Shown in pieces: positions 7,244 to 60,216 of a DNA stretch of 64,000 nt (position 1 is its first letter; each line of letters begins with the position of its first letter). The DNA is from Opitutia bacterium (GTDB lineage Bacteria > Verrucomicrobiota > Verrucomicrobiia > Opitutales > Opitutaceae). The position numbers and the translations under genes were made by a program. The DNA is taken from contig JACPIT010000013.1 in the NCBI GenBank assembly GCA_016187945.1, forward strand, positions 248,001 through 312,000, written 5' to 3'. The notes beneath the pieces were generated by a model, which did not search any database, was not told the DNA's origin, and saw only the letters and a list, made by a program, of their open reading frames with translations.

Positions 7244-8428
7244 GTGTCCTCTCTCCACGCCTCTCTGCGCCGCATCGGCGCCTCGCTTATTCAGTGGGTC
7301 GATTCCGACTACACGCTTGAATCCCCGGAAACCATCCGCGCCCAACCCGATGGCGTGAATCTCGTCCGCTGCATCCCGTTTATCATCCTGCACCTCGGCT
7401 GTCTCGGCGTGCTCTGGGCCGGCTGGAGCTGGTTCGCCGTCTGGGCCGCCGTGTTTCTCTACGTCGTGCGCATGTTCGCCGTCACCGGCATCCTGCACCG
7501 CTATTTCTCCCACAAGACCTACAGCACGTCGCGCTTCGGCCAATTTCTCCTCGCGCTCTGGGCCGGCACGACCGTCCAACGCGGCCCGCTCTGGTGGGCG
7601 TATCATCACCGCCACCACCACCTGCACTCCGACGACGAAGAGGACGCCCACTCGCCGCACGTGCACGGCTTCCTCTGGTCGCACATCGGCTGGATCACCT
7701 CGAAGCGCAACTTTCCCACCGACTACACGAAAGTCAAAGACCTCACCAAATACCCCGAACTCGTCTGGCTGAACCGCTTTGACATCGTCGTCCCCGTGCT
7801 CTTCGCGCTCGGCCTCTTCGGTCTCGGCGCGTTGCTCGAGAGCGTCGCCCCCTCGCTCGGCACCAGCGCCTGGCAGCTCCTCGTCTGGGGCTTCTTCATC
7901 AGCACCACCGCGCTCTTCCACGGCACCGCGTCGATCAACTCCTTCACGCACCTCTGGGGCAAACGCCGTTTCAACACCACCGACGACTCGCGCAACAGCT
8001 TCATCCTCGCGATCGTCTGTCTCGGCGAAGGCTGGCACAACAACCACCACCGCTACCAGTCCGCCACCCGCAACGGTTTCTATTGGTGGGAAATCGATCC
8101 GACCTACTACGGCCTGAAGGCGCTCTCGTTCACCGGCTTCATCTGGGGCCTGAAATCCGTCCCGAAATCCATCTACGAAGAAGCCGAGCGCAACGCCCAC
8201 CACGACACCATCCGCCGCATGTCGCTCTCCTCCGTGCAGGACGAGATCAACACGCTCAAGCGCGTCGTCCCCACCGCTGCCGCCATCGCCCTCGCCACCG
8301 TCAACTCGCCCGAAGTCGCCGCGCAGATGCAGAAAAAAGACGGCCCCGCGATCCACAAGGACGTCTCCGAACTCGCGCAACAGCCACCCGCGACCTCGCC
8401 GAAAAACCAAAACCCGCCCGTCATCTAG
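7244..8428 (+). CDS. Membrane acyl-CoA/acyl-lipid desaturase
   Basis: Di-iron fatty acid desaturase, 394 aa from the GTG at 7244, inserting a double bond (delta-9 type) into membrane fatty acids. The three histidine boxes are present: HRYFSH (from about residue 85), HRHHH (about 121) and HNNHH (about 265), with hydrophobic membrane segments around residues 35-75 and 175-220. The start is uncertain: a TTG at 7178 is also in frame and no clear ribosome binding site marks either. The C-terminal 70 residues are an extension rich in charged and Ala residues. The stop TAG is followed at once by a GTAG-headed repeat. The next plus-strand gene modifies unsaturated lipids, its likely product. Confidence 0.88.
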   Translation: MSSLHASLRRIGASLIQWVDSDYTLESPETIRAQPDGVNLVRCIPFIILHLGCLGVLWAGWSWFAVWAAVFLYVVRMFAVTGILHRYFSHKTYSTSRFGQFLLALWAGTTVQRGPLWWAYHHRHHHLHSDDEEDAHSPHVHGFLWSHIGWITSKRNFPTDYTKVKDLTKYPELVWLNRFDIVVPVLFALGLFGLGALLESVAPSLGTSAWQLLVWGFFISTTALFHGTASINSFTHLWGKRRFNTTDDSRNSFILAIVCLGEGWHNNHHRYQSATRNGFYWWEIDPTYYGLKALSFTGFIWGLKSVPKSIYEEAERNAHHDTIRRMSLSSVQDEINTLKRVVPTAAAIALATVNSPEVAAQMQKKDGPAIHKDVSELAQQPPATSPKNQNPPVI

Positions 8429-8451
8429 GTAGCGCCGGTCTCCGACCGGCG
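8429..8451. repeat. Single REP unit, family C
   Basis: GTAGCGCCGGTCTCCGACCGGCG: a GTAG head plus one hairpin, without the inverted partner seen in other copies. It begins directly after the desaturase stop codon. Confidence 0.75.
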
Positions 8452-8512
8452 AAAAATTCCCTCGCACCACGAAGGCGTCGCGACTTCACCGCACCGCCCG
8501 CTTCGGAAAACC

Positions 8513-8544
8513 AAGCCCCGCCACCCGCGGGGCTTTTCTTTTTT
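8513..8544 (+). terminator. Rho-independent terminator after the desaturase
   Basis: Stem GCCCCGC/GCGGGGC, then TTTTCTTTTTT. Confidence 0.85.
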
Positions 8545-8794
8545 CCACCGCGCCATCGACCGACGGACGCGGTCTTGGCGCGCCCCTCGCCACCGCCCGG
8601 CGCACTTCTCGCGCTCCGAGCGCGCGCGGCACACGCAGGCGCAGCGCGCGCCGCGAGGCTGCGCCGCTACAAACCGGCCACGCCGCGCGCACCTTGCGCC
8701 CCCGCCGATTCTGCGTCTGTTGCGGTATAACGAGCGTTCGCCAACCGTCGCGCCACCGCCGCCGTCGCCATCGCTCTCCCGTCGCCTCCACGCC
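8545..8794. other. Intergenic region upstream of cfa-like gene
   Basis: GC-rich, no credible gene. It should contain the promoter of the cyclopropane synthase gene. No motif recognised. Confidence 0.4.
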
Positions 8795-10090
8795 ATGAGT
8801 TCGCCCAAAGCCGCTGCCGCTTCGCCACTCGCGCGCGACAATTCCCGCTCCCCTTCCCTCGCCGAGCGCGTGCTGCTCGATGCCTTCGCGAAAATGCCGC
8901 GCGGACAACTCCGACTCGAACTCCCCGACGGCACCGCGCGCACCTTCGGCGCCGCCGCGCACGCCCCGCGCGAGATCGCACCCGGCGTCACCGACGCGGC
9001 CGTGCTCCGCGTGCGCCGTGGGCGATTTTTCCGCCGCTGCCTCCTCGGCGGCGACATCGGCTTCGCGGAATCGTTCATCGACGGCGATTGGGACACCCCC
9101 GACCTCACCGCGCTCATCGGCTGGTTCGTCCTCAACGTCGAACACGCGCCCACGATGTCCGGCTCGGAGCGCGCGAAAGACACCGCTCTCCACCTGCTGC
9201 GTTTCGCTCATCGCCTCGGTCACCGGCTCCGCGCGAACACCCGCACGACCGCCCGCCGCAACATCGCCGAGCACTACGATCTCTCGAACGACTTCTTCGC
9301 GCTCTGGCTCGACGAGACGATGACGTATTCCTCCGCCAAGTGGGAGCGCGCCGACGCCGCGCTGCGCGACGCGCAGATCGCCAAGAACGACGCGCTCTGC
9401 CGCAAACTCCACCTGCGCCCGACCGACCACGTGCTCGAGATCGGCACCGGCTGGGGCGGCTGGAGTCTGCACGCCGCGCAAAACTACGGCTGCCGCGTCA
9501 CGACACTCACGATCTCGCAACAACAACACGACCTCGCCGTGCAGCGCATCGCCGCCGCCGGCCTCGCGGACCGCGTCGAGGTGCGCTTGCAGGATTACCG
9601 CGACGTCCGCGGCCAGTTCGACAAGATCGTCTCGATCGAAATGCTCGAAGCCGTCGGCCACGAGTTCCTCCCCGCCTACGCCGCCGCGTGCGCACGCGCG
9701 CTGAAGCGCGACGGCCTCGTCGCTCTGCAATTCATCACCTGCCCCGACGCGCGCTACGCCGAGTTCCGCCGCGGCGTGGATTTCATCCAGAAGCACATCT
9801 TTCCCGGCTCGCTCCTGCTCTCGGCCAACCGCCTCAACGATCTCTTCGCCCGCGCCGGCGGCTTCGTCCTCCACAACCTCGAAGACCTGGGCCGCGACTA
9901 CGCGCGCACGCTCCGCACGTGGCGCGAGAACTTCACCGCGCGCCTCGACCGCGTGCGCGCGCAGGGCTTCGACGAGCGTTTCGTCCGCAAGTGGGACTAC
10001 TACCTCGCCTACTGCGAAGCCGCCTTCGCGCTCCGCAACATCTCCGTCGTCCAAACCGTCCACACGCGCCCGAACAACCTGTCGTTCTGA
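8795..10090 (+). CDS. cfa: Cyclopropane-fatty-acyl-phospholipid synthase
   Basis: SAM-dependent methyltransferase that adds a methylene bridge across double bonds of membrane phospholipid acyl chains. 431 aa from the ATG at 8795. The N-terminal lipid-binding part carries FAESFIDGDWDTPDL. A linker with NIAEHYDLSNDFFALWLD and MTYSSAKW is diagnostic. The SAM site VLEIGTGWGGW begins near residue 211. SIEMLEAVGHEFLP and the C-terminal WDYYLAYCEAAFALRNI complete the family pattern. In-frame sequence upstream to 8720 is Pro/Ser-rich and unlikely to be translated. Placed after the desaturase, whose product it can use; a terminator lies between them, so they are probably separately transcribed. Confidence 0.93.
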   Translation: MSSPKAAAASPLARDNSRSPSLAERVLLDAFAKMPRGQLRLELPDGTARTFGAAAHAPREIAPGVTDAAVLRVRRGRFFRRCLLGGDIGFAESFIDGDWDTPDLTALIGWFVLNVEHAPTMSGSERAKDTALHLLRFAHRLGHRLRANTRTTARRNIAEHYDLSNDFFALWLDETMTYSSAKWERADAALRDAQIAKNDALCRKLHLRPTDHVLEIGTGWGGWSLHAAQNYGCRVTTLTISQQQHDLAVQRIAAAGLADRVEVRLQDYRDVRGQFDKIVSIEMLEAVGHEFLPAYAAACARALKRDGLVALQFITCPDARYAEFRRGVDFIQKHIFPGSLLLSANRLNDLFARAGGFVLHNLEDLGRDYARTLRTWRENFTARLDRVRAQGFDERFVRKWDYYLAYCEAAFALRNISVVQTVHTRPNNLSF

Positions 10091-10113
10091 CGCGCGCCCG
10101 AGCGCCGCCGCGT

Positions 10114-10539
10114 TCAGTAATTCGGCCAGATGCCGGGCGTGATGAGTTCGAGCAGGTGGCCGTCCGGATCGCGGAAATACAAACTGCGTCCGCCGCGCGG
10201 CCAGTGCGTCTCGCCTTCGATCGCGACGCCGGCGCTGGCCAGCTTCTCCTTCCACGGCTCGTAACTTTCGTGCGTGATCGCGAAGCCGATGTGGTGCGGA
10301 CCGTGGCCGTCGTGCGGCGGGATGATGCCGCCCGGCACCGCCGTCGGCACGAGCGTGGCACCGCGCCGGAAGAGCAACAGCACCTGGCGACCGCCGGGAT
10401 TGAAGACCGCGAAACGCTCGCGATCGCCGCCCTGCGCCGTCAGGCCGAGCACGTCGCGATAAAAGGCGACCGCGCGTTCGAGGTCGTCGACGTAGAGGAT
10501 GGTTTCGACGATGCCTTCGATGCGCGGAGTCGGTTGCAT
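10114..10539 (-). CDS. VOC (glyoxalase/dioxygenase) superfamily protein
   Basis: 141-residue protein of the vicinal oxygen chelate fold with two beta-alpha-beta-beta-beta modules. The first has ILYVDDLERAVAFYRDVLGL. The second has HHIGFAITHESYEPW and ends with SLYFRDPDGHLLELI, which includes the usual Asp-Pro-Asp-Gly-His and a Glu metal ligand. The reaction is not predictable: glyoxalase I, fosfomycin-resistance-type and dioxygenase members share this pattern. Convergent with cfa, 23 bp apart. Only 65 bp separate it from the exporter gene upstream on the same strand, so the two may be co-transcribed. Confidence 0.85.
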   Translation of the reverse strand: MQPTPRIEGIVETILYVDDLERAVAFYRDVLGLTAQGGDRERFAVFNPGGRQVLLLFRRGATLVPTAVPGGIIPPHDGHGPHHIGFAITHESYEPWKEKLASAGVAIEGETHWPRGGRSLYFRDPDGHLLELITPGIWPNY

Positions 10540-10604
10540 GCGGCCAAATCAGCCGGTTTTCGTCGAAGCGCAATCCTTCGCTCCACGCCCGCGCCGCCGC
10601 GTGA

Positions 10605-11492
10605 TCAGAGCAGCACCAGCGCGATCGCACCGATCATCAGCGCCGCGCCGACGAAGCGGAAGCGCAGCACACCGGACGCGAGGTGCTGCTCCGTGCTCGC
10701 GAACCAGTGGCCGATCGCCCACACCGCGAGCACGCTGAAGAGTCCGCGCGCGCTGTAGACGATGTTCACCGCCGTCGCCCCGCCCCAGATGCCGAGCGTG
10801 AGCACGATGCCGGCATTGTTCAGCGCGAGCAGCAAGCCGCCGATGGAAACCCAACGCCATGCCGCGGCGTCGAACGCCGCGAGCGGCGCGCTGAAGAAGG
10901 GCACGAACGCGAACGAGTAAACGCCCACGAACAGAAACATCGCCGGAAAGTAACTCGCCGTGCCCCACGCCGGCACCCACTTCTGCATCAGCACATCGCC
11001 GAGGCCGTAGGCGAGCGCGCTGGCCGTCGCGAGCGCGACGGCCGTGCCGACCTGGCGACGCTCACCGCGCTTTTCGCCGGCGTGCAACAGCGCGACCGCG
11101 CCCGCGCTGAGCCCGGCGCCGAGCCACCATTTGAGCGGCACATCGCCCACGCGCAGCAGGCTGCTGAAGAGCGCGACCATGATGACTTTCGTGCCCATCA
11201 CTGGCGTCGTCACCGACACGTCGCCTTTGCTCAGCGCGAGGAAGATGAAAATCTGCCCGCCGAGGAAACACAGTGCGGTGACGGCGGGTTGCCAGTAGTC
11301 TGCGAACGGGTGCAGCCGGCCGCCCTGAAGAAACCACCACGGCAGAAACACCACGAACATGATCCAGTTCGCCACGAAGCTCGTGCGCCAGACGCCGACG
11401 CCGAACGCTGCGGCGCGTTTGATCGTGAGCGCCGCGAGCACGTAGAGCAGGGCGCACGCGAGCGGGATCAGGAGATGCAGCGGAAAATTCAC
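10605..11492 (-). CDS. DMT-superfamily (EamA-like) transporter
   Basis: Inner-membrane metabolite exporter, 295 aa with about ten hydrophobic helices in two repeated halves, as in EamA/DMT transporters. It starts at a GTG (11492). Helix pairs are visible at the N-terminus (LLIPLACALLYVLAAL) and C-terminus (VGAALMIGAIALVLL). The Gly/Ala-rich segment ALSKGDVSVTTPVMGTKVIM matches the conserved SVTTPI-type loop of this family. Substrate unknown. Likely in the same transcript as the VOC gene downstream. Confidence 0.85.
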   Translation of the reverse strand: MNFPLHLLIPLACALLYVLAALTIKRAAAFGVGVWRTSFVANWIMFVVFLPWWFLQGGRLHPFADYWQPAVTALCFLGGQIFIFLALSKGDVSVTTPVMGTKVIMVALFSSLLRVGDVPLKWWLGAGLSAGAVALLHAGEKRGERRQVGTAVALATASALAYGLGDVLMQKWVPAWGTASYFPAMFLFVGVYSFAFVPFFSAPLAAFDAAAWRWVSIGGLLLALNNAGIVLTLGIWGGATAVNIVYSARGLFSVLAVWAIGHWFASTEQHLASGVLRFRFVGAALMIGAIALVLL

Positions 11493-11659
11493 GCGAAGAA
11501 AACCAGCAAGCCGGTTCGCACGCGCGCACGCAAACCGGTTCGTCGTCGCCGCCTTGCCGCCCTGTCTTCTCGCCGCCGGCTCGCCGCAGCAGCCGTCACT
11601 CGGCTGACGAAGGGCGGCGAGCAGATCGCGGCGCGCGGATCGCGGCGCGGGGTTTTCCT
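11493..11659. other. Intergenic region before a repeat pair
   Basis: No gene. It contains scattered short dyads and leads into two palindromic repeats (11660-11817). It should hold the promoter of the transporter gene. Confidence 0.4.
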
Positions 11660-11733
11660 GTAGGAGCGGCTTTACGCCGCGATTCGAGCGCGGCGCGCGC
11701 TGCGAACCAATCGCGGCGTAAAGCCGCTCCTAC
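11660..11733. repeat. REPIN-like element, family A
   Basis: GTAGGAGCGGCTTTACGCCG and its reverse complement as the two arms around a 26-bp centre. Each arm can also fold by itself (GCGGC TTTA CGCCGC). First of seven copies in the window. Confidence 0.9.
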
Positions 11734-11756
11734 AATCACGCGTGCGGGGCCTTGGA

Positions 11757-11817
11757 GTAGCGCGGTGCTTTAGCCCGCGCCGGATAATTCTCAGCACGGG
11801 CCGAAGCACCGCGCTAC
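11757..11817. repeat. REPIN-like element, family B
   Basis: Arms GTAGCGCGGTGCTTTAGCCC and GGGCCGAAGCACCGCGCTAC. It follows a family A copy after 23 bp. The same A/B pairing, with a related linker, recurs at 42795-42957 and 51135-51295. Confidence 0.85.
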
Positions 11818-11824
11818 CTCGGAC

Positions 11825-12385
11825 TCACAGCAACTGCTTCACCAGCGCCTCGTAGTCAGCGTGCGGCATCGAGCCGGTTTTCTGGTGGCGGATGTTGCCG
11901 TCGCGATCGATGAGGAATGTCGTCGGGATCGCGTCGAAACCGCCGAACGCCTCCCCGAGCGCGCCGTCGTCGCCCATCGCGACGAGGTAATTCATGCCGT
12001 TCTTCTCGGCGAACTGCTTCACCTTGGCTGCGCCGCCGCGATCGACCGAAACACCGACGATCACGAGGCCGTCTTTCGCGTATTTCTTCTGCAGCTCGAT
12101 GTAGCCCGGAATCTCCGCGACGCACGGACCGCACCACGTCGCCCAAAAGTCCACGACGACCACCTTGCCCTTGAGCGATGCCGCGGTGATCTCCTTGCCG
12201 TCGATCGTCGTCAGCTTGAAGTCGGGCGCCTTGCCCACGACGGGCAACGCATTCTTCGCCACCGCGGATGCGGCGCCCGCCGCCGAGCCGGAAGCGACCG
12301 ATGCCGTCGACGAACCGGTTTGTTTGCCGCAGCCGGCGAGCACGGCCGCCGCAGCGAGGAGTGAGATCGAAAAGGCGTGGCGCAT
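11825..12385 (-). CDS. TlpA-like thiol-disulfide lipoprotein
   Basis: Periplasmic redox protein of the thioredoxin fold, 186 aa from the ATG at 12385. Lipoprotein signal with lipobox LAGC (Cys19), then a Ser/Ala-rich linker to about residue 45. The redoxin domain has GKAPDFKLTTIDG, the active site WCGPC (Cys85, Cys88) and the cis-Pro loop AIPTTFLIDRDG. It probably reduces or protects envelope disulfides, for example in cytochrome c maturation, though no cytochrome genes are near. The stop lies 7 bp from a family B repeat. The LysR gene upstream on the same strand is 59 bp away. Confidence 0.9.
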   Translation of the reverse strand: MRHAFSISLLAAAAVLAGCGKQTGSSTASVASGSAAGAASAVAKNALPVVGKAPDFKLTTIDGKEITAASLKGKVVVVDFWATWCGPCVAEIPGYIELQKKYAKDGLVIVGVSVDRGGAAKVKQFAEKNGMNYLVAMGDDGALGEAFGGFDAIPTTFLIDRDGNIRHQKTGSMPHADYEALVKQLL

Positions 12386-12444
12386 ACCTGCGTAAGAGCC
12401 CCGGCCCCGCGGGTTGTTCCCGGAAAACTCCGCGCGCGGCCGGC

Positions 12445-13359
12445 TCACGCGACGACGGGCTTCGGCGCCTCGGCGACGGCGAGTTCGCCGCTGAGCGTCT
12501 CGATGAATTTCTTCATCGCCGGCGTGAGCACGCGGCCTTTGCGGTGCAGGATCGCGAGCGGACGGGTGAACTCCTTGCCCTTGAATGCGATCACGGCGAG
12601 CGTGCCCTGCTTCACTTCCTGGACGACGGTCGCTTGCGGCACGATGGCGATGCCGTGGTCGATCTCGACGGCGCGTTTCACGGTCTCGATGTTGTCGAAC
12701 TCCATCACCGGCGTGATCTCGAGCTTGTTGTCGCGGAAAATCTGATCGACCGCCTTGCGCGTCGGGATGTCGGGATCGAAGCCGATGAACTTGTGGCCGG
12801 CGAGCGTCTTGAGGTCGGCTTCCGGTCCCTTGGCGAGCGGGTGGTTCGGATGCGTGATGAGCACGAGGCGGTCGTTGCGAAACGGAATCGTCTCGATCTG
12901 CCGGAGCTTCTGCGGAAACGCGACCAAGCCGAAGTCGACCGAGTTGTGCAGGATGTCTTCGTAGACGAGATTCGAGCGCCGATACTCGATGCGCACGTTC
13001 ACCGAAGGATAGTCGTGCAGGAATTTTTTGATGTAGGGCGGCAGCTCGTGCAGGCCGATCGAGTAGATCGTCGAGATGCGGATCGTGCCGCTGATGACCT
13101 TCTTCATCTCCTGCAGCTCGCTGAGGAGCTTCTCGTAGACGTGCAGGATCTCCTTCGCCGCGTCGTAAATGCGCTGGCCCTCGCGGGTCAGATTGAACTG
13201 CTTCTGCGACCGGTCGATCATCAGCGTCTTGAAATTGCGTTCCATGGAACGCGCTTGCTGACTGACCGCGGATTGCGTGATGCCGTTCAACTTCGCGGCC
13301 TTGGAGAAGCTTTTTGTCTCCACGAGGTCCGCGAAAATCTTGAAGTTTTCGATTTGCAT
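12445..13359 (-). CDS. LysR-family transcriptional regulator
   Basis: DNA-binding regulator, 304 aa from the ATG at 13359. N-terminal winged helix-turn-helix (residues 1-60: SFSKAAKLNGITQSAVSQQA), then the two-lobed effector domain starting at GTIRISTIYSIGLHELP. The type is closest to CysB/CbbR-like regulators. Its effector is unknown. It is divergent from the YggS gene with 68 bp between the start codons, so it may control that gene or the redoxin gene downstream, which is inference from position. Confidence 0.9.
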   Translation of the reverse strand: MQIENFKIFADLVETKSFSKAAKLNGITQSAVSQQARSMERNFKTLMIDRSQKQFNLTREGQRIYDAAKEILHVYEKLLSELQEMKKVISGTIRISTIYSIGLHELPPYIKKFLHDYPSVNVRIEYRRSNLVYEDILHNSVDFGLVAFPQKLRQIETIPFRNDRLVLITHPNHPLAKGPEADLKTLAGHKFIGFDPDIPTRKAVDQIFRDNKLEITPVMEFDNIETVKRAVEIDHGIAIVPQATVVQEVKQGTLAVIAFKGKEFTRPLAILHRKGRVLTPAMKKFIETLSGELAVAEAPKPVVA

Positions 13360-57142: not shown

Positions 57143-57261
57143 CCGGCGCCCGGCCGCGTGCGCGCGCCGGCGTAAATCGCCGCTGATATTCCGCGTCAGA
57201 GCCTCCGCGGGGCTTGCGGCGGTCCCCCGGCTGCGGCAAAAGTCGCCAACTGACTTTTGCC

Positions 57262-60216
57262 ATGAAGCTCTCCCGCGTCCTCCGCCACGCCTTCCTCGCG
57301 TCCGCGCTCACCGCCGGCCTCTCCGCCGCCGAAGGCGACCTCGCCGCGCTCCGCGCCAAGGCCGAAAAGGGCAACGCCATCGCGCAATACAACCTCGGCC
57401 TCACCTACGCCGAGGGCCGCGACACGCCCGTCGACCGCGCCGAGGCCTACGTCTGGCTCTCCCTCGCGCTCGAAAACGGTGCCCGCGGCCGCGCGCTCGA
57501 CAGTCTCACCGCCCAACTCAGCGCCAGCGAACTCGACGCCGCGAAGGCCCGCCTCGCCGAACGCCGCGCCGCCCTCGGCCGACCCGCTCCCGCCGCCCCG
57601 TCCAGCGCCAGCACACCGACCGCCGACGCCTCCGCCGTCGAACGCGAACTCGCCCAAGCCAAGGTCGACAAGCAACAACTCAGCACCGAACTCGCCGCCG
57701 CCTGGAAGGAAGCCGATCAACTCAAAGCCGACCTCGAGAAAACCAAAGCCGCCGCCGCGCCCGCCCCCGACGTCGAGCAGCTCCGCCGCGAACGCGATTC
57801 CCTCTCCGCCAAGATCACCGAGCTCGCCGGCGACGTCGCCACGCTCCGCGCCGATCGCGAACGCCTCCAGAAACTCGCCGCGCAAGTCCAGCGCGACGTC
57901 ACCGACGCCCGCGAGACCAGCCGCGCCTACCAGGAGCAAGCGCGCATTTCCGAGATGCGCATCGGCGAACTCGTCCGCCAGACCGAGCAGCTCAAAGCCG
58001 AGCTCGACCGCGCCAACCAATCCATCGCCGCCCTGAAATCCCCCGGCCCCAACGCCACCGTCGAAAACGCCGCCCTCCTCCAAAAAACGCGCGAACTCCA
58101 GGGCGCCCAAGCCGACCTCGAAAACGCCCGCGCTGCCAACGAGCAGCTCAGCTCCGCTCTCGCCAAGTCCAACACCGACCGCACCGATCTCGAAAAAATG
58201 CTCGCGCAGGCCCAAAGCGCCGCGCTCCTCCTCGGCAAACACGTCGACGAACTCAACGCCGAGATCGCCCAGCTCAAGCAAGCCCCCGCGACCGCCGCCT
58301 ATCCCGACCTCCGCGCCAAAGTCGGCGAACTCGAGCAACAACTCGCCGCCGCCCGCAACGCCACGCCCGCGTATCCCGACCTCCGCGATCAAGTCGCCGA
58401 ACTGCAAAGCCAGCTCTCCACCGCGCGCGCCACCGCCCCGGCTTACCCGGACCTCCGCCCGCGCGTGAGCGAACTCGAGCAACAGCTCGCTTCGGCCAAC
58501 GCCCGCCCGAGCGCGCCGGCCTACCCGGATTTGCGCGAACGCGTCAGCGATCTCGAAACCCAAGTCACCGCGCTCCGCAATGCCCCGCCCGCTTACCCGG
58601 ACCTGCGCGAACGCGTCGCCGATCTCGAGGCGCAAGCCCGAGCGCTCCGCAACGCGCCGCCCGCTTACCCCGATCTCCGCGAGCAAGTCGCCCAGCTCCA
58701 AACGCAGCTCGCCCAACTCGTCGCGCGACCGAGCGAGCCGAACTATCCCGACGTGCGCGAGCGCGCCGCCGCCCTCGAAGCGCAACTCGCCGAGGCCAAC
58801 CGCCGCGCCGACACCCTCGACACCCGCGCCACGACTCTCGCCAACGCCAAGACCACCCTCGAAAACGACCTCGCCACCGTCCGCTCGCAGCTCAGCCGCA
58901 GCCAGCAGCAGGCCGACATCTTGCAGGAAAGCTCCGACAAGCTCACCGCCGCGAATCGCACGCTTCAGGACCAACTTGCCGCCGCCACGAATCGCCCCGC
59001 CGCCCCTGCGTATCCGGACCTCCGCGAGAAAGTCGCGCAGCTCGAGCAGCAGCTCGCCGCCGCGCGCGACACCACGCCGGCCTATCCTGATCTCTCCGGT
59101 CGCGTCGCTCAGCTCGAGTCCGCTCTCGCCACGACCCGCGCCCAACTCGCCGCCGCGCCCGCCTACCCGGACCTCCGCGAGCGCGTCAGCGAACTCGAGC
59201 AACAGCTCGCCACCGCCGCCGCCAGCGCCCGCCCGGCCGCGCCGGGTTACCCCGATCTCCGCGAGCGCGTCTCCGAACTCGAAACCCAACTCGCCGCCGC
59301 GAACAGCCGCCCCGCCGCCCCGAGCTATCCCGACGTGCGCGAGCGGGTGAACGAACTCGAGGCGCAAGTCGCCGCGTTGCGCAACGCGCCGCCGGCCTAC
59401 CCGGATCTGCGCGACCGCGTCGCGCAACTCACGCAGGAACTCGCCAGCCGCCCGGCCGCGCCGAGTTATCCCGACCTGCGCGACGAAGTCGCCGCGCTCC
59501 GGCAGCAGCTCGCCGCCGCGCGCGACACCACGCCGGCCTATCCTGATCTCTCCGGTCGCGTCGCCCAGCTCGAGTCCGCCCTCGCCACCACCCGCGCCCA
59601 ACTCGCCGTCGCGCAATCCCAGCCGCAAACGACTTCTTCCGCGCCCGCCGAAAACGTCGACGAGCTGAAAGAGAAACTCGCCACCGCCGAAGACAAACTC
59701 GCCACGGCGCTCAACGGCTACTCGCAACTTCGGAAGGATTACGACGCGCTCGAAGCCAACACCGCGAAGTCCGCCAGCACGCTCACCACGGAAAAAGACT
59801 CGCTTACCGCCCGTCTCGCCGCCGCCGAAGACACCGCGCACAACGCCCAAACCGAAGTCACCCGCCTCACCGACGCCCTCGCCGCGACGCAGCGCGGCAG
59901 CAGCCAAGCCGGCACCGAACTCGCGTCGGCCCGCGCGCTGCTCCAGCAATTGCAGGGCACGAACGCCGTGCTCGCGCAGGAAAATTATCGCCTGAAAGCC
60001 GCGCTCGCCAACGACCCCGCCGCTCGCCGCGCCGCCGTCACCGCCGCCGCGGCCAGCGTCCGCACGCACACGGTCGAGGCGGGCGACTCGCTCTCTAGGA
60101 TCAGCCAGCGCTACTACGGCTCGCCCAGCCGCTGGCAGGAAATCTATGCCGCCAACCGCGACCTGATCGGCCCCCAAGGCCAGCTCCGCATCGGCCAGGT
60201 GCTGCGGATTCCGTGA
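57262..60216 (+). CDS. SEL1 / repetitive coiled-coil / LysM envelope protein
   Basis: 984 aa from the ATG at 57262. Signal peptide ending GLSAA. Residues ~25-80 contain a SEL1-type helical pair (AEKGNAIAQYNLGLTYAEGR). A long coiled coil follows. From about residue 350 to 790 there are 15 copies of a 20-28-residue unit headed by [AP]xYPD[LV]R and followed by a heptad run such as ERVSELEQQLA. Another coiled coil leads to a C-terminal LysM domain (HTVEAGDSLSRISQRYYGSP, WQEIYAANRDLIGPQGQLRI). LysM implies peptidoglycan binding; the rod probably spans part of the periplasm. The antisense strand is also open but is a codon-bias shadow. Confidence 0.85.
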   Translation: MKLSRVLRHAFLASALTAGLSAAEGDLAALRAKAEKGNAIAQYNLGLTYAEGRDTPVDRAEAYVWLSLALENGARGRALDSLTAQLSASELDAAKARLAERRAALGRPAPAAPSSASTPTADASAVERELAQAKVDKQQLSTELAAAWKEADQLKADLEKTKAAAAPAPDVEQLRRERDSLSAKITELAGDVATLRADRERLQKLAAQVQRDVTDARETSRAYQEQARISEMRIGELVRQTEQLKAELDRANQSIAALKSPGPNATVENAALLQKTRELQGAQADLENARAANEQLSSALAKSNTDRTDLEKMLAQAQSAALLLGKHVDELNAEIAQLKQAPATAAYPDLRAKVGELEQQLAAARNATPAYPDLRDQVAELQSQLSTARATAPAYPDLRPRVSELEQQLASANARPSAPAYPDLRERVSDLETQVTALRNAPPAYPDLRERVADLEAQARALRNAPPAYPDLREQVAQLQTQLAQLVARPSEPNYPDVRERAAALEAQLAEANRRADTLDTRATTLANAKTTLENDLATVRSQLSRSQQQADILQESSDKLTAANRTLQDQLAAATNRPAAPAYPDLREKVAQLEQQLAAARDTTPAYPDLSGRVAQLESALATTRAQLAAAPAYPDLRERVSELEQQLATAAASARPAAPGYPDLRERVSELETQLAAANSRPAAPSYPDVRERVNELEAQVAALRNAPPAYPDLRDRVAQLTQELASRPAAPSYPDLRDEVAALRQQLAAARDTTPAYPDLSGRVAQLESALATTRAQLAVAQSQPQTTSSAPAENVDELKEKLATAEDKLATALNGYSQLRKDYDALEANTAKSASTLTTEKDSLTARLAAAEDTAHNAQTEVTRLTDALAATQRGSSQAGTELASARALLQQLQGTNAVLAQENYRLKAALANDPAARRAAVTAAAASVRTHTVEAGDSLSRISQRYYGSPSRWQEIYAANRDLIGPQGQLRIGQVLRIP

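Follow-up and report, generated by a model that had tools for sequence, protein, structure and literature searches.

Braun lipoprotein (Lpp) forms a trimeric coiled coil whose C-terminus is held to peptidoglycan, and it is tiny, lipid-anchored and covalently linked to the peptidoglycan. FimV is a large envelope protein with a LysM domain, and CrvA is a large envelope protein that forms periplasmic filaments. Here we describe a gene of an Opitutia bacterium (Opitutaceae) whose product carries 15 copies of a short unit headed by the residues YPD, followed by a LysM domain. The gene lies at 57262..60216 on the plus strand of the window, i.e. the whole stretch of 64,000 nucleotides that was analysed (assembly GCA_016187945.1, contig JACPIT010000013.1, positions 248,001 to 312,000), and is an open reading frame of 984 codons and a stop; all its features given below are on the plus strand. 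The window protein differs from Lpp in that it has no lipobox and carries a LysM domain, while FimV and CrvA are functional leads only, likened to it by description and not by sequence. CpoB/YbgF of Escherichia coli is likewise an envelope protein, which in the available part of its description combines a TPR domain with a trimer and has a part in the synthesis of peptidoglycan (PMC4458516). Of the 33 Pfam families matched by the window protein 25 were listed, and none of these is of CpoB type. The domain order of CpoB/YbgF also differs, and to our knowledge it has neither a LysM domain nor a long repeat array.

We propose, with a probability of about 0.5, that the window protein is a jointed, wall-bound trimeric rod of proline-capped cassettes, exported and anchored by LysM, which probably acts as a periplasmic tether or scaffold. 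The proposal starts from what is observed, i.e. the gene, its repeated motif, the conservation of that motif and the match to LysM; export and helix breaks are predicted, and from these we infer the trimer, the partner and the role in the cell. The exported protein would be fixed to peptidoglycan via its C-terminal LysM domain, the N-terminus would be a Sel1-type protein-binding end, and a long jointed shaft would lie between the two. Each YPD unit would be one cassette, in which one helix would end and the next begin at P-x-Y-P-D-L, while [RK]-V-x-E-L-E behind the head would seed a short parallel coiled coil of three strands and fix its register; arranged in tandem, the cassettes would then form a flexible rod, the longer the more copies there are. 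LysM anchoring and the helix breaks are the best-supported of these steps. The role, most likely that of a periplasmic tether or scaffold by which a Sel1-bound partner would be kept alongside the sacculus or at some distance from it, is a guess from the architecture.

A conserved unit headed by YPD

The window protein has 15 YPD heads at residues 347-760, of which 13 read YPDL and two YPDV; 0.08 YPD would be expected from its composition, and at most two appeared in each of 10,000 residue shuffles. The initial annotation had described a protein of 984 residues, which the reading frame confirms, with 15 units of 20-28 residues headed [AP]xYPD[LV]R. The number of heads stands, while the unit has to be redrawn, as the fifth head place is R in 13 units and S in the other two (units 9 and 15), and the heads are spaced 23-28 residues apart except for one spacing of 89, which divides the supposed single array into two blocks. 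The first block, units 1-7 (58291..58806), is defined by the head scan and by the helices and breaks of both AlphaFold2 models described below, and the second, units 8-15 (59002..59610), by the head scan and the helices of the full-length model. Between them lies a coiled coil of residues 516-580 (58807..59001), placed by the head scan and the full-length model.

Over related proteins the unit has the consensus P-x-Y-P-[DN]-L-x-x-[RK]-V-x-E-L-E-x-x-[LV] in about 24 residues, 24 also being the commonest head spacing (91/347). The counts cover 371 heads in 24 proteins, i.e. frames with at least two YPD, and leave out the proteins of genomes G248 (one YPD) and G004 (none). Numbering the tyrosine as 0, P(-2) is present in 99%, Y in 96% (the rest F), D in 91% (the rest N) and L(+3) in 98%, where Y/F, P(+1), D/N and the class of +3 were preset by the head pattern, so that only the other positions are independent findings and heads that lost the preset Y/F or P(+1) escape the count. 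Behind the head, R/K(+6) is found in 85%, V(+7) in 97%, L(+10) in 99%, E(+11) in 89% and L/V(+14) in 92%. YPD is written in 14 of its 16 possible codings over 321 heads, and between genomes G001 and G007 the eight key positions show one residue change against 31 synonymous changes (88 codons), compared with 27 against 42 at the remaining positions (176 codons). Hence the unit motif is held by selection and not by recent copying.

Such strictness would also be expected if PxYPDL were a linear docking motif, at whose many copies a partner binds, with the helices as mere spacers. This polyvalent binding strip would explain why Y (as against F) and P(-2) are kept more strictly than a helix break alone should need, bearing in mind that Y/F and P(+1) were preset, and why YPD persists in so many codings. 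However, V(+7), L(+10) and E(+11) are about as strict as the head itself. The protein of G248 points both ways: of its four heads one is intact, two are without Y but keep PDLSG[RK]V..LE, and the fourth reads YPN and has lost E. We regard the binding strip as an unlikely account of the array.

The protein of genome G009 (locus L050, 6072-9716) has longer units in which YPDLR heads take turns with the variants PPPFADQR and PPAFSDQR, and these variants may represent a second head type.

A trimerisation motif at a fixed place in the unit

R-h-x-x-h-E is a motif that specifies parallel trimers in short coiled coils, according to the accessible parts of two reports (PMC3653964; see also PMC5940361). 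The unit contains the same six-residue pattern, with its two hydrophobic residues at a and d, here as [RK]-V-x-x-L-E. All strict motifs of the window protein (8/8) and all relaxed ones allowing [RK] (10/10) lie at +6 of a head with a/d spacing, as do 218/270 strict and 285/349 relaxed motifs in the 24 proteins. The strict motif occurs at 8.6 per 1000 residues in YPD proteins and at 2.0 once the heads are cut out, compared with 1.6 in ten short paralogues and 2.3 in 14 long paralogues without YPD. In this pattern the window protein resembles the R-h-x-x-h-E parallel trimeric coiled coils, from which three parallel chains would be predicted, and we consider a trimer slightly more probable than not. 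The fixed place of a known trimerisation motif within the unit, as read from these alignments, is new here and was missed by the initial annotation. The published cases, as far as the accessible text of the same two reports goes, have 2-4 motifs in one coiled coil (PMC3653964, PMC5940361), whereas in the window protein the motif recurs from unit to unit, each copy behind a PxYPDL break.

This arrangement leads us to a more specific suggestion, which we put forward tentatively and with somewhat less confidence than the rod itself: the 24-residue unit may be a self-contained proline-capped trimerisation cassette in natural tandem. In one bacterial lineage evolution would add or drop such cassettes and thereby determine how long and how stiff a wall-bound trimeric rod is. 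If the cassettes trimerise singly, they would offer a ready-made modular rod with a length that follows copy number, and a testable envelope scaffold for cultured Lacunisphaera, whose group was once described as lacking peptidoglycan (PMC5303756, in the part available). If they do not, what is left is the clade-specific birth of a repeat within an older coiled-coil wall protein.

Predicted structure of the shaft

Two AlphaFold2 models agree with the claim of the initial annotation that the head breaks the helix at regular points. The segment model, of residues 339-512 (units 1-7; 12 aligned rows; predicted local distance difference test score (pLDDT) 70, the five models spanning 70 to 39; predicted template modelling score (pTM) 0.20), has seven helices (13-28, 37-52, 61-76, 87-102, 111-126, 135-150 and 160-173 in segment numbering), all 16 residues long except the last, which has 14, and it is broken for 8-10 residues at the heads. 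The full-length model (nine rows, pLDDT 64, pTM 0.26) is interrupted at all 15 heads by 1 to 12 residues. A segmented shaft is therefore the natural reading of the predicted breaks. The full-length model also gives the helices of a first coiled-coil stretch at residues 124-340 (57631..58281) and of a C-terminal coiled coil at residues 799-917 (59656..60012). Between the two ends it has 650 helical residues, which would measure about 98 nm if fully extended. The ordinary periplasm is far narrower, so that an upright rod would not fit and the shaft would lie along the sacculus or fold; joints at the heads would permit either.

The same figures can be read as a compact fold-back, in which one chain (or two) forms a helical bundle or solenoid of short antiparallel helices, with PxYPDL as the turn. 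The breaks of the segment model could accommodate a turn, and the extended length favours a shaft that folds back or lies flat. On the other hand, pTM values of 0.20-0.26 give no confident packing of a single chain, though few rows were aligned, and the narrow core stripe (positions 3, 7, 10 and 14) together with R-h-x-x-h-E suits parallel oligomers better, which makes this arrangement improbable in our view. A continuous stammered coil of 24 residues over seven turns is disfavoured by the two prolines in each head, by the predicted breaks and by spacings of 23, 24, 25 and 26, which bar a fixed register. Head spacings above 28 favour 2 or 3 modulo 7 (57/106 in a thinned set of 13 proteins, 93/177 in all 24), but this signal of heptad-quantised spacing is gone once each distinct value is counted once and is only suggestive.

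Several observations weigh against the jointed trimeric rod. Units 2, 6, 7, 13 and 14 of the window protein (5/15) are without even the relaxed trimerisation motif, and the units share descent, so that motif counts are not independent and the value of a Fisher test is no true probability. In the full-length model the breaks are uneven in length, the one at head 11 (residue 663) being a single residue, and breaks also occur away from the heads, e.g. at residues 163-170, 260-269 and 787-798. Both models are single chains of modest confidence in which the packing is not fixed. The fourth head of the G248 protein, which keeps YP, does so without the E of the motif. Operon hints sought among the genes around the array were not found, and these neighbours gave no clue to function.

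The two ends and the known families

The LysM domain (residues 936-984; 60067..60213) scores 38 bits against the Pfam cut-off of 20.9 and is also supported by the alignment within the genus and by a match to a solved chain. The window protein thus belongs by sequence among LysM-domain proteins, and peptidoglycan binding is predicted. The Sel1-like repeat (residues 39-73; 57376..57480) is a single one and scores 24.6 bits, below its cut-off of 30.7, with support from the same alignment and from solved chains. The initial annotation had listed SEL1 helices, a coiled coil and LysM; the latter two are borne out, and the first comes down to this one sub-threshold repeat. Both families are matched at E<=0.001 in 9/9 aligned proteins (the window's and eight of the genus). 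Five solved sequences match the whole protein, of which four are Sel1/TPR-type chains aligned with the Sel1 region and the fifth is Kbp, through its LysM. Judged by eye, without a predictor, approximately residues 1-23 (57262..57330) form a predicted signal peptide without a lipobox; of 25 proteins, 22 have an N-terminus, and all of these begin in this way. A lipobox was looked for in 25 YPD-type proteins (three without an N-terminus) and none was found. The window protein has no cysteine at all, and with no lipobox cysteine it falls, by its sequence, outside the lipid-anchored class of periplasmic tethers (Lpp, Pal).

Beyond LysM and Sel1, scans of Pfam and NCBIfam gave only coiled-coil or unrelated models for the window protein (25 of 33 Pfam families listed), and none of the 21 NCBIfam matches reached its cut-off. 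Six coiled-coil-like Pfam models exceed the cut-off over the whole protein (Pox_A_type_inc, Occludin_ELL, Fez1, MTR4-like_stalk, NET2A and Golgin_A5), and we read them as coiled-coil noise. The first, PF04508, is a 23-residue coiled-coil repeat and scores 56.3 bits against 21.4 over the whole protein, with no single stretch passing; its best stretch is 13 residues in unit 10 with the head outside, and 8/9 proteins of the genus match it. This match probably reflects coiled-coil likeness. The Crescentin-type rod PF19220 stays below its cut-off (18.7 bits against 100) and is matched at E<=0.001 by 3/9 members, as many coiled-coil models are. A profile of the unit gave one weak match in the PDB, to a dynein docking protein (E 0.003), which we likewise read as coiled-coil noise. 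A literature search found no description of a YPD-headed protein or unit. The statement of the initial annotation that no family of this architecture has been described therefore holds for the Pfam families listed, for NCBIfam and for the literature searched.

Distribution and origin of the array

With the whole protein as query, some match was found in 55 of 57 genomes (its own and relatives), although among the matches listed many weak ones concern the LysM end only. A query of 163 residues over units 1-7 matched orthologous arrays in 25 of 250 sampled genomes of the family, which belong to three genera: nine to the window's own genus (g1, own genome included), 15 to g58 and one to g48. In a sample of the phylum 8/387 genomes matched; they belong to g1 or g58 without exception, and each had been found in the family scan. 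Genomes were sampled, and up to 14 candidates per genome were scored in the family scan and nine in the phylum scan. A frame with at least two YPD (2-27 in number) is present in 24 of the 25 matching genomes, G248 being the 25th, low counts being perhaps incomplete as some frames end at contig ends or start without an N-terminus (L107, L108, L109). The genus g1 comprises 13 genomes; no match to the 163-residue query was found in G010, G011 and G012 (74-86% complete), and the orthologue in G004 (L045, 6595-7605) has only 337 residues, no Sel1, no YPD and one degenerate head, PPAFTDQR. One of the three array-bearing genera holds putative Lacunisphaera limnophila (G142).

Opitutaceae also have Sel1-coiled coil-LysM proteins without YPD, one of them in G015 (putative Opitutus terrae). 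Their ends are similar, Sel1 and LysM matching the window protein, and they stand beside the YPD proteins in a tree and apart from the long paralogues. The proline content of their middle part is 1.3-2.7% in 9/10 counted and 5.0% in L058, compared with 4.4-7.3% in nine arrays of the window's genus. The tree was built on the two ends of 38 proteins (42 rows less four that had no N-terminal match) and unites 20/21 YPD proteins in a single clade (87/90); L044 stands near the clade base, not resolved. It needs two changes for the YPD array, while 30% of bootstrap trees need one, and a single origin of the array is likely from these sequences. A mobile or phage origin is ruled against, as a search of 72,556 plasmid and 50,697 phage records with the seven-unit query gave no hit at E<=1e-5.

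A second, larger protein is encoded in the same genome (L062, G000:C10:258000-276000, 7407-13223, minus strand), in a frame of 1939 residues with several Sel1, a long coiled coil, LysM and no YPD. Other Opitutaceae, including putative O. terrae (L077), have similar frames.

Dynamics of the array

The initial annotation had taken two nearly identical DNA blocks as a sign that the array is expanding by recombination. The near-identity exists, but extends over no more than 168 bp (90%), its core being a tract of 107 nucleotides with three differences (97%; the first 63 nucleotides identical) that was found by DNA alignment in units 8-9 (59046..59152) and again in units 14-15 (59502..59608). Window units 12, 13, 14 and 15 best match units 7, 8, 9 and 11 of G001, and unit 14 matches units 5 and 9 of G007 at 0.76 and 0.75. 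Unit 9 duplicates unit 15, with an identity of 0.96 to it and of 0.83 to the last unit of G001. This one tract was thus, on sequence identity, clearly duplicated or converted recently in the window lineage, after its split from G001 and G007. An older, weaker likeness (74%) joins the blocks at 58284-58792 and 58995-59515.

A broad expansion is rejected, because mean unit-to-unit DNA identity is the same inside the window array (0.638) as to the G001 array (0.641), and because the sister species G001 and G007 keep 11/11 units in one-to-one order as mutual best matches. The count of heads, 15 against 11, implies further undated gains or losses, and unit number does vary between species. That the array is low-constraint coiled-coil filler, a short unit spread by slippage whose breaks have no role, could draw on the recent tract, the reduced orthologue of G004 and the missing matches in G010, G011 and G012, but is very unlikely given key positions strongly conserved across diverged units and species, the synonymous excess between G001 and G007 and the presence of the array in three genera.

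Neighbouring and overlapping frames

The neighbours of the window gene encode a peroxiredoxin, a Mem_trans permease and a 3-hydroxyisobutyrate-type dehydrogenase, and in two relatives (L043, L099) the array gene has an FGGY kinase upstream. An antisense open frame of 993 residues (57196-60177, minus strand) spans nearly the whole gene and is probably a shadow of GC-rich codon use. An LpoB-like domain (59 bits against the Pfam cut-off of 22.3) is encoded in G008 by a frame (L049, 5363-6940) that lies on the opposite strand and starts approximately 1.3 kb upstream of the array gene.
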